A DNA stretch of 64,000 nucleotides, from positions 4,340,001 to 4,404,000 of the forward strand of contig NZ_JAGF01000001.1 of assembly GCF_000526515.1 (NCBI RefSeq), given 5' to 3'. Below the pieces are notes generated by a model. That model was not told the DNA's origin and made no database searches. It saw only the letters and a program-made list of their open reading frames with translations. The first letter of the stretch is position 1. Each line of letters starts with the position of its first letter. Positions 1 to 17,070 of the stretch are shown in pieces. Origin of the DNA: Cellulomonas sp. KRMCY2 (GTDB lineage: Bacteria; Actinomycetota; Actinomycetes; Actinomycetales; Cellulomonadaceae). A program made the translations under genes and the position numbers.

Positions 1-177
1 GGTGGACTTGCCCGATCCGGACGGGCCCATGATCGCAGTGAGCTCGCCGCGGGCGAAGTCGACGCTCACACCGTCGAGCGCCCGGACCGACGCCTCCCCC
101 TTGCCGTAGGTCTTGACCAGGTGCCGTGCCGAGGCGATCTGTCCGTTCGCCTCGGGGTCGGTTGCCAGTGCGCGCAT
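1..177 (-). CDS. ABC transporter ATP-binding protein, N-terminal part (runs off window)
   Basis: Only the first 59 codons are inside the window. The start is ATG at 177 and the reading frame is open to base 1. The translation has a short N-terminal tail, a LVKTYGKG strand typical of MacB/LolD-type export ATPases, the ALDGVS segment, and a Walker A motif GPSGSGKST at the very edge. Such ATPases usually pair with FtsX-like permeases that export lipids, peptides or drugs, and the partner would lie beyond base 1. The Walker A assignment is certain; the MacB/LolD subfamily is inferred from the short stretch before the P-loop. Confidence 0.85.
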
Positions 178-13708: not shown

Positions 13709-13782
13709 TCGGGATGGCGGGATTCGAACCCACGACCTTCCGCTCCCAAAGCGGACGCGCTACCAACCTGCGCCACATCCCG
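13709..13782 (-). tRNA. tRNA-Pro (UGG)
   Basis: On the minus strand the 74 bases fold into a cloverleaf: acceptor CGGGATG/CATCCCG plus discriminator A, D-arm GCGC-GCGC, anticodon stem TCCGC/GCGGA with loop TTTGGGA (anticodon TGG), and T-loop TTCGAAT. CCA is not encoded; the next bases are CCG. It lies upstream of tig on the same strand. Confidence 0.95.
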
Positions 13783-13914: not shown

Positions 13915-13985
13915 GCGGGTGTAGCTCAATGGTAGAGCCCCAGTCTTCCAAACTGGCTACGGGAGTTCGATTCTCCTCACCCGCT
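13915..13985 (+). tRNA. tRNA-Gly (UCC)
   Basis: A 71-base cloverleaf: acceptor GCGGGTG/CACCCGC with discriminator T, D-arm GCTC/GAGC, anticodon stem CCAGT/ACTGG with loop CTTCCAA (anticodon TCC), and T-loop TTCGATT. CCA is not encoded. It reads GGA and GGG codons and lies immediately upstream of the membrane-protein gene at 14040. Confidence 0.95.
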
Positions 13986-15076: not shown

Positions 15077-15244
15077 CGGAGCACCCCCGTCGGCCGTGGC
15101 TCACCCGGACGCGGACAAGTACCGGGACGGAGACTAGCGTCCGGTGCCGGCGTCCGGTCGACATCGCGGACGATTGCGCACCCCCGGCCGGGCCGGTAGC
15201 GTCGCAGGCCACGAGCGGATCGACCGACGACGAAGGGACGTGAG

Positions 15245-15343
15245 ATGGGCATCGCCTGGTTCCTGCCCATGACCGTCACCGCACCGTCGTCCGTCACCAC
15301 ATCCGTCACCTCGTACGCCGGCTGTCTGCCGAGCTGTCGATAG
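15245..15343 (+). CDS. 32-codon leader peptide upstream of cysKE, two Cys codons near its end
   Basis: A small ORF starts at ATG 15245, preceded by the purine-rich GAAGGGACGTGAG. It encodes a 32-residue peptide ending AGCLPSCR. Both Cys codons (15323 and 15335) are TGT, although TGC dominates in the surrounding genes. The stop at 15343 is 203 bases before cysK. Short upstream ORFs with C-terminal Cys codons control cysteine genes in mycobacteria by ribosome stalling, so a similar attenuation role is proposed here. Translation itself is not shown. The rest of the 470-base gap between 15077 and 15546 holds no other gene; weak hairpin arms are at 15382-15386 and 15397-15401. Confidence 0.5.
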   Translation: MGIAWFLPMTVTAPSSVTTSVTSYAGCLPSCR

Positions 15344-15546
15344 AGCGCTGGCTCTCCCGCTCCGGACCCCGGCCCCGCGTCGGCGATCCTGAGACGTCGC
15401 CCCGCGACGGCGGCCAGTGCTCCTGCCCCCGTGACCTTGCCGCCTCGCTGCCGGCACCCGGAATGCTGACGAGCCTCAACCAGTTGTCCCCACTGGACCC
15501 ATGATCGAACGGCCGCTGCCGCGGCCCCCTGAGACGAGGAATCCCC

Positions 15547-16482
15547 ATGGCCCGCATCTTCGACGACGTCACGCAGCTCGTCGGCAACACCCCACTGGTC
15601 CGCCTCAACCGGGTGACCGAGGGCGCCGGCGCGACAGTCGTCGCCAAGCTCGAGTTCTACAACCCCGCCAACTCGGTCAAGGACCGGATCGGGGTTGCCA
15701 TCATCGACGCCGCCGAGGCGTCCGGCGAGCTCCCCCCCGGCGGCACTGTCGTCGAGGCGACCAGCGGCAACACCGGGATCGCACTGGCCATGGTCGGCGC
15801 GGCCCGCGGGTACACGGTCGTGCTGACGATGCCCGAGACGGCATCCAAGGAGCGGCGGGTGCTGCTGCGCGCGTTCGGTGCCGAGCTCGTCCTGACGCCG
15901 GGCAGCGAGGGCATGAAGGGCGCCGTCGCCCGCGCCGAGGTGATCGCCGCCGAGCGGCCGGGCGCCGTCCTGGCGCGTCAGTTCGCCAACGAGGCCAACC
16001 CGGCCATCCACCGCGCGACCACCGCCGAGGAGATCTGGGCCGACACCGACGGCCAGGTCGACATCGTCGTGGCCGGCATCGGGACCGGCGGCACCATCAC
16101 CGGCATCGGCCAGGTGCTCAAGGCACGCAAGCCGGGCCTGCAGGTCATCGGGGTCGAGCCGGCCGAGTCGCCGATCCTGCACGGGGGCGCTCCCGGGCCG
16201 CACAAGATCCAGGGCATCGGTGCGAACTTCGTCCCGGAGATCCTCGACACGACCGTCTACGACGAGATCGTCGACGTCGACGCCGAGACGGCCGTGCGCG
16301 TCGCCCGGGACACCGCCCGGCGCGAGGGCCTGCTGGTCGGGATCTCCTCGGGCGCCGCGATCCACGCGGCCGTCCAGGTCGCCCGGCGGCCGGAGAACGC
16401 GGGCAAGCTGATCGTCGTGATCGTGCCGTCGTTCGGTGAGCGCTACCTGTCCACGATCCTCTACGCCGACCTGATGGACTGA
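15547..16482 (+). CDS. cysK: Cysteine synthase A (O-acetylserine sulfhydrylase)
   Basis: A 311-residue PLP enzyme that makes L-cysteine from O-acetylserine and sulfide. The Schiff-base Lys is in NSVKDR (about residue 43). The substrate loop TSGNTG (about 70-75) and phosphate-binding GTGGT (about 178-182) are intact, and the C-terminus SFGERYLST is canonical. The start ATG has GACGAGGA 5-12 bases upstream. cysE follows after three bases, so both enzymes of the serine-to-cysteine branch are made together. The long leader with a Cys-ending ORF (15245-15343) suggests control by cysteine supply. Confidence 0.97.
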
Positions 16483-16485
16483 GCG

Positions 16486-17070
16486 ATGGACCGCATGTGG
16501 CGCTTCCTCGTCGTGCTGCGCGAGGACCTCGAGGCGGCTCGACGTCGCGACCCCGCGGCGCGCAGCCTGGTCGAGGTCGCCCTGGGCTACCCGGGGGTCC
16601 ACGCGCTGTGGGCCTACCGGGTGACCCACCGGATGTGGCGGGAGCCCGGCCTGCGCCTGGCGGCGCGCCTGCTCTCGCAGGCCACCCGGGCCGCGACCGG
16701 CATCGAGATCCACCCGGGGGCTCAGATCGGGCGTCGGCTGTTCATCGACCACGGCATGGGCATCGTCATCGGCGAGACGGCAGTGGTCGGCGACGACGTC
16801 GTGCTCTTCCACGGTGCCACCCTCGGCGGCAGGTCGATGCGCCGGGGCAAGCGGCACCCGACCCTCGGTGACAACGTCGTGGTGGGTGCCGGCGCCAAGA
16901 TCCTCGGCCCGGTGTGGATCGGTGACGGTGCACAGATCGGCGCGAACGCCGTGGTGGTCAAGGACGTCCCGGCGCACGCCGTGGCCGTCGGGGTGCCGGC
17001 CGTGATCCGCACGCGCTCGGTCGCCTCCCCCGCCGTCGATCTCGTCGAGGACCCCGCCATCTACATCTGA
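16486..17070 (+). CDS. cysE: Serine O-acetyltransferase
   Basis: A 194-residue hexapeptide-repeat (left-handed beta helix) transferase that makes O-acetylserine from serine and acetyl-CoA. The motifs [26 protein letters not shown] and [16 protein letters not shown] belong to CysE. This is the short form that lacks most of the N-terminal helical domain of the enterobacterial enzyme and is common in Actinobacteria and Bacillus. It begins three bases after cysK. The tail after about residue 170 ends DPAIYI, and the Ile terminus is consistent with the cysteine-synthase complex, in which the CysE C-terminal Ile enters the CysK active site. Confidence 0.96.

Follow-up and report, generated by a model that had tools for sequence, protein, structure and literature searches.

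A short open reading frame (ORF) ending in cysteine codons precedes the cysK-cysE operon of Cellulomonas sp. KRMCY2, and computational comparison with its relatives shows that a hairpin based on the stop codon of this leader ORF, retained through compensatory changes, is conserved in a fixed register with one Cys codon and the stop. From the sequences and from folding models, we consider it highly probable that ribosomes translating the leader impose cysteine-responsive control on the operon, which itself makes cysteine. All positions given below refer to the window, the 64,000-nucleotide stretch of a 4.50 Mb chromosome that was analyzed.

The leader ORF and its conservation

The leader ORF (15245-15343, + strand) runs from an ATG to a TAG, encodes the 32-residue peptide MGIAWFLPMTVTAPSSVTTSVTSYAGCLPSCR and has counterparts in relatives. 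An SD-like GAAGGGA lies just upstream (15232-15238, +), as SD-like sites do before most relatives' leader ORFs. Counting back from the stop, its two Cys codons occupy positions -6 (15323-15325, +) and -2 (15335-15337, +), and both are TGT. After 203 nt, which include the SD region GACGAGGA (15533-15540, +), the stop is followed by cysK, encoding cysteine synthase A (15547-16482, +; NCBIfam TIGR01139, E 1.9e-132), and then by cysE, encoding serine O-acetyltransferase (16486-17070, +; TIGR01172, E 1.2e-70). A sequence-only reading of this DNA had described exactly this arrangement, namely a 32-codon ORF with a ribosome site and two TGT Cys codons, a 203-base leader and cysK-cysE downstream; the letters agree with it, and the protein profiles confirm both genes. 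It had also called TGT rare, and indeed TGT accounts for only 4 of the 87 Cys codons in the 38 predicted genes of the window. Among the stop codons of the same genes, TAG is found in 3/38 and TGA in 34/38, so both the TGT and the TAG of the leader are unusual choices for this DNA. UGU is probably decoded more slowly than UGC by the single tRNA-Cys.

A promoter-like site (15174-15202, +) is made up of TTGCGC (15174-15179) and TAGCGT (15197-15202), 17 nt apart. A sigma-70 consensus scan found no promoter, but a looser search for TTGnnn and TAnnnT did, and 38 of 52 relatives have TTGnnn-16..19-TAnnnT ahead of their leader ORF, compared to 0.6% in base-shuffled sequence (two of the 54 regions described below had no chosen start). 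We expect transcription to start near 15209, and since the site is upstream of the leader ORF, the ORF should sit inside the transcript. In the window, 42 nt separate the end of the site from the ATG, the SD-like site lies between them, and this leader ORF is probably SD-led rather than leaderless. In four relatives (L003, L004, L006 and L097) 7-8 nt lie between the promoter-like box and the start codon, a spacing suggestive of leaderless translation, compared to 28-81 nt in the remaining 34. The same type of attenuator seems to employ both start modes, SD-led and leaderless, in a single genus.

We examined conservation in cysK upstream regions gathered with a CysK search of 59 genomes, 57 of which matched, together with 20 further upstream stretches and 80 named loci (the best 80 of 565). 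Removing 7 duplicates from 130 loci left 123 distinct regions, which are not independent of one another; L008 and L009, for example, are nearly identical. Three loci of the window's genus, L004, L008 and L016, agree upstream of cysK with records of Actinotalea solisilvae, A. soli and A. fermentans, and L007 with one of Cellulomonas sp. APG4, so that the genus is probably Actinotalea. A Cys-ending or Cys-rich leader ORF is present in 60 of the 123, not counting L106, where a chance ORF lies 378 nt upstream. The core defined in the next section is found in 54 of the 60, a further region (L015) has the core with its stop lost, and five (L020, L021, L047, L063 and L066) keep a Cys tail without the core. 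All 19 genomes examined from the window's genus contain the leader, 18 of them with the full core, as do all 18 examined from the rest of the family, 15 of them with the core, so the absence of the ORF or its Cys codons from relatives, which would have told against the sequence-only reading, is not seen among close ones. Its suggested alignment also came out in favor of a leader: the frame, Cys codons, stop and promoter are conserved before the cysK genes of relatives. Because of this conservation, a Cys leader ahead of cysK-cysE is well supported, with the response to cysteine itself a prediction.

Farther out the leader disappears. Regions without it come mostly from Arthrobacter, Pseudarthrobacter and relatives, and from Terrabacter/Janibacter-like and Microbacteriaceae-like genomes; Pseudactinotalea suaedae and Occultella glacieicola also lack it before cysK. 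In a class-wide draw of 49 loci the core was found once, in L185, which belongs to the same family as the window. Because it is missing from these distant relatives, the leader is, among the sequences compared, restricted to a lineage and not general to cysK.

The peptides themselves are about 16-49 residues long among relatives and have little in common except Cys near the end, where some carry runs such as LRCCCCL. Since their N-terminal parts share little by eye, the Cys codons rather than the peptide seem to matter. The conserved position of the ORF could also reflect a functional small Cys-rich peptide, a reading we find scarcely credible given the unconserved N-terminal sequence, the variable length and a window peptide that matches no family. 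The window peptide is a Cys-poor member of the group, with two spaced residues and no contiguous run. Such spacing, which the sequence-only reading took to be distinctive, turned out to be nothing unusual, as 17 of the 54 core regions, the window's included, have at most two Cys codons at positions -2 to -15.

The TGT-CNN-TAG core and the stop-codon hairpin

The constant part of the leader is an RNA core, TGT-CNN-TAG, in which the last Cys codon stands two codons before the TAG. So as not to select on Cys, we picked regions by any TAG[AG]GC[AG]Y in the 460 nt ahead of cysK. This anchor was present in 55 of the 123 regions, and TGT occupies codon -2 in 54 of these 55, while TGC occurs there in none. 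The exception, L027, has a chance anchor and was removed, leaving 54 regions. Further upstream, at codons -3 to -15, the 55 regions contain 142 Cys codons in frame, whereas the two alternative frames contain 15 and 37, and 24 loci found later with an RNA model gave 93 in frame versus 3 and 25. Outside the core both TGC and TGT are used. Codon -1, between the TGT and the TAG, starts with C in all 54 regions. Additionally, the base preceding TGT(-2) is C in 51 of 54, and the hairpin accounts for neither this C nor that of codon -1.

The pattern TGTCNNTAGAGCGYTG occurs once each in 23 of 59 genomes, always before cysK by coordinates, and its reversed control gave one match in total across the 59. 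The looser pattern TGYTGTCNNTAGAG found 20 places in the same genomes. Six of these do not precede cysK (in G000, G034, G039, G041, G046 and G055), and by eye none resembles a leader ORF before a cysteine gene. With two mismatches allowed there was no signal in G000, which gave 54+54 matches versus 253+281 for the reversed control.

The sequence-only reading had mentioned hairpin arms in the leader, and we could place them. The left arm, GAGCGCTGG (15343-15351, +), starts at the last base of the stop codon and pairs with the right arm, CCAGTGCTC (15414-15422, +), and the two arms covary. In the 38 clearest cases, GAGCGCTGG from the stop codon pairs with CCAGCGCTC, which ends 35-87 nt later. 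Variants that preserve the pairing are found as AGCGCCGG/CCGGCGCT in L003, L006 and L053, AGCGTTGAC/GTCAACGCT in L029, AGCATTGC/GCAATGCT in L037, AGCATTGA/TCAATGCT in L041 and AGCGTTGA/TCAACGCT in L043, and by eye as AGCGCGGG/CCCGCGCT in L267, L271 and L274, AGCGTCGG/CCGACGCT in L277 and AGCGCAC/GTGCGCT in L280. In an alignment of the 38 rows, which were picked from the 54 for a clear stem so that covariation, RNAalifold, partner and C>G counts made on them lean towards the hairpin, 98.8% of cells pair, double changes occur at 4 of the 9 pairs, the covariation score is reached by 0 of 500 shuffles and RNAalifold predicts the identical nine pairs. When rows are not chosen, the stem beats base-shuffled sequence (p<0.05) in 19 of the 54 regions.

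The newly matched loci give a second alignment, fitted to the model, of 23 of the 24 loci (L269 falls under the threshold) plus an opposite-strand match of L270. Here 98.6% of cells pair, double changes occur at 2 of the 9 pairs and the covariation score is again reached by 0 of 500 shuffles; the number of pair types on these loci is not above shuffles (309/500). In both alignments, a shift of the partner by 1-3 columns takes pairing to under 48%. Folded alone, the whole window leader is nothing special (z -0.66). The use of TAG, where window genes prefer TGA, is explained at least in part by the pairing of its last G in the stem.

Nucleotide conservation of this kind could also mark a DNA site for a regulator, with an AGCGCT palindrome and the Cys codons as a by-product; TGTCNNTAGAGC is conserved at the nucleotide level and located downstream of the promoter. 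We rejected a DNA motif on the Cys frame counts, which show the in-frame excess outside the core in both spellings, and hold it to be very unlikely. SD sites and start codons precede the Cys codons, five relatives have the Cys tail without the core, and the compensatory pairs argue for RNA. Because those five dispense with the core, the hairpin, as judged from these loci, is not required everywhere. In L015, a congener, the TAG is lost within an otherwise kept core and hairpin, and the ORF extends four codons further, entering the left arm and ending at a TGA. This locus offers a natural test of what the placement of the stop contributes.

Models of control

We favor a model in which the hairpin turns the operon off at the level of transcription, although we hold it tentatively, at somewhat less than even confidence. 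The leader ORF would be transcribed and translated, as the conserved promoter, SD, frame and stop suggest. With ample Cys-tRNA, a ribosome would pass UGU(-2), terminate at the UAG and leave, upon which the hairpin based on the stop codon would form and lower cysK-cysE expression. With scarce Cys-tRNA, the ribosome would wait with UGU in the A site, covering the start of the left arm; no hairpin would form and the operon would be expressed. The effector could be either Rho or a U-poor terminator. The constancy of TGT(-2) and the retention of in-frame Cys codons while the peptides vary speak for this proposal.

To model the ribosome, we masked its positions while folding the 54 leaders. In the free RNA the hairpin has a mean probability of 0.85. 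A ribosome whose A site holds the stop brings it to 0.00 and one whose A site holds TGT(-2) to 0.12, and a ribosome three codons earlier than TGT(-2) leaves it at 0.90. The corresponding values for the window are 0.99, 0.00, 0.02 and 0.91. Two aspects sit poorly with the preferred sign. A ribosome bound at the stop also abolishes the modeled hairpin, and the long Cys runs of some relatives should stall the ribosome upstream of the place where it blocks the hairpin, which could then form.

These same observations lend weight to the opposite sign, with the hairpin as the ON state in the manner of trp-type control. Starvation at earlier Cys codons would free the hairpin, which would then shield the transcript against Rho; a ribosome on the stop codon would cover the left arm, leaving the C-rich right arm and the tail exposed to Rho. 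In many relatives there are Cys codons far ahead of -2, where a stalled ribosome keeps the hairpin (0.90), and the stop-bound ribosome removes it (0.00). We nevertheless think this sign unlikely, since 17 of the 54 regions have just one or two Cys codons and only TGT(-2) never varies. The right arm also lacks an alternative partner beyond chance (0 of 38 leaders), and one relative, L041, has a terminator-like tail. More generally, among competing pairings for the arms, three alternatives beat shuffles (p<0.05) in 0, 1 and 2 of the 38 leaders.

Regulation could instead operate on translation of cysK, with the leader governing access to its ribosome site. Such a mechanism has a mycobacterial precedent, reported or assumed in the available portions of papers citing Canestrari et al. 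2020 (PMC9031893, PMC13236596), and the folding model does not cover long-range or tertiary contacts. However, the modeled accessibility of the cysK SD and start barely changes (+0.013 with the ribosome at the TGT, +0.019 at the stop and +0.022 three codons earlier, compared to +0.012 for random masks), so sequestering of the SD is unsupported and we regard translational attenuation as doubtful. Attenuation probably takes place at transcription, and not at the cysK ribosome site.

Against the preferred action on transcription, a U-tract scan of the window leader found no U-tract terminator. Among the 54 relatives, a T-rich stretch follows a GCTC site in two, after the hairpin in L041 and after another GCTC site in L070. 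In L041, which belongs to another genus of the same family, CTTTTTC comes after the hairpin, as it would at an intrinsic terminator, and this speaks for the preferred model. Rho-type control typically involves a C-rich, G-poor region after the leader ORF, and such a region is present here, though it is also seen where there is no leader. The rest of the window leader (15423-15530, +) is C-rich by its C>G composition and may be a Rho loading region. Only 0.7% of windows of equal length, taken on either strand, reach the C-over-G skew of the window's leader. C exceeds G after the hairpin in all 38 leaders, with a mean skew of 0.285, compared to 59 of 68 regions without a leader and a mean of 0.111, in groups that differ in lineage and GC. 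Folding of the region after the hairpin is ordinary (z -0.57 vs -0.67).

Distribution and relation to known leaders

We searched 297 genomes of the order with a covariance model, R1, built on the 38 rows; the window, being one of these rows, scores 44.9 bits at 15329-15427 (+). At E <= 0.01, with E-values that are rough, R1 matches 53 of the 297 genomes, once in each, and 51 of the 53 matches are located upstream of cysK (30 + 13 by reading, 8 by coordinates). Neither the match in G331 nor that in G581 has a neighboring cysK, and both are probably spurious. The window's genome contains no second target at this threshold. Genomes of the family without a match include G022, G031, G532 and G572, and two of these, G022 and G031, still have a leader (L047 and L035). 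As far as these searches extend, cysK appears to be the only gene preceded by the RNA element, which is seen in the window's family and in a few neighboring families of its order. The RNA model detects leader ORFs whose peptides vary too much for protein profiles. At the Rfam gathering score, the window has no match in the leader, only four tRNAs. Two of these tRNA genes, upstream of the leader locus, lie in opposite orientation about 130 nt apart (13709-13782, -, and 13915-13985, +).

Rv2334 is presumably cysK1 of M. tuberculosis, so the name of the mycobacterial family leader_Rv2334A points to cysK. Like the leaders of this family (NCBIfam NF042939) and of leader_Ms5788A (NF042933), the window ORF is short, has Cys codons near its stop and precedes a cysteine operon. 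It differs in probably being SD-led where theirs are leaderless, although the four relatives noted above look leaderless, and in having no Cys run like those of the mycobacterial polycysteine short ORFs, although runs occur in many of its relatives. At E<=1 the window peptide matches neither of these NCBIfam families nor cis_reg_atten. The peptides of four relatives of the window kind do not match the three families either; one has a sub-threshold lantibiotic match (E 0.065).

According to the accessible part of Seliverstov et al. 2005, Cys leaders were predicted in Mycobacterium spp. and P. acnes, where they precede cys operons, and in B. longum, where cbs is the gene preceded (PMC1262725). 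Those candidates share with the leaders described here the Cys codon runs near the stop before cys genes, but they come from other lineages, with no Cellulomonas in the genome list as shown there (PMC1262725), and the present leaders add a conserved hairpin and the invariant TGT(-2). In the same excerpted text no conserved terminator-capable hairpin was seen in Mycobacterium, and Rho was suggested since terminators were missing (PMC1262725); the window leader has instead a covarying hairpin at the stop codon. Later work, in the portions available, placed ribosomes on a leader ORF that ends in Cys, upstream of cysA2 (Shell et al. 2015, PMC4633059) and, as papers citing Canestrari et al. 2020 relate, described cysteine-responsive attenuation in M. 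smegmatis (PMC9031893, PMC13236596). The suggestion that the mechanism here may differ from that of mycobacteria seems to hold for the conserved stop-codon hairpin but not for the spacing of the Cys codons on which it had been based. As far as the available part of the 2005 paper goes, actinobacterial Cys leaders, on record since then, lack a recognized downstream structure in mycobacteria, which left their mechanism open (PMC1262725). A clade with a covarying hairpin in fixed register to one Cys codon makes the mechanism testable by a few point mutations.

Cys leader-ORF attenuators of Actinobacteria are thus a known kind, of which the hairpin-bearing form seems new; a limited literature search found no published description of a stop-codon hairpin in a Cys leader. 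The window leader resembles trp-type attenuators in having codons for the product of the pathway in a leader ORF and a hairpin adjoining the stop, but it has neither a competing antiterminator nor a U-tract terminator. Control of the tnaC type is Rho-dependent, with a ribosome at the end of the leader ORF and, immediately after it, a C-rich region. Both of these elements recur here, whereas a hairpin lies between them and the proposed signal is starvation at a Cys codon rather than stalling that the peptide induces at the stop. We are evenly divided on whether these leaders constitute a new RNA family, a ribosome-gated attenuator with a single hairpin, the stop codon in its stem, one invariant rare UGU as sensor and the ribosome itself as the anti-structure, with no competing hairpin.

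Other Cys leaders appeared in the same searches. In three loci from other families of the class (L214, L222 and L231), cysK is preceded by a different one, TRRRxVDFxR...CxC; the L214 peptide is over the cut-off of cis_reg_atten, and that of L222 matches leader_Ms5788A weakly. The polycysteine peptide of L224 bears a faint likeness to leader_Rv2334A (11.1 bits vs a cut-off of 35). To judge by these sequences, unrelated-looking Cys leaders precede cysK in different lineages. Leaders of the cis_reg_atten family (RRVHVDLLRTxxxLC-like) exceed the cut-off in 6 of the 19 genomes that were searched (L234-L239, from congeners and one relative in the order; G000 is not among them). About 100 nt downstream of this leader, L236 and L238 have an ORF for a 2OG-Fe(II) oxygenase, and by eye a similar ORF is present in L234 and L239. 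Since the leader precedes this oxygenase ORF in congeners, the same genus has a second type of leader, on a different gene.
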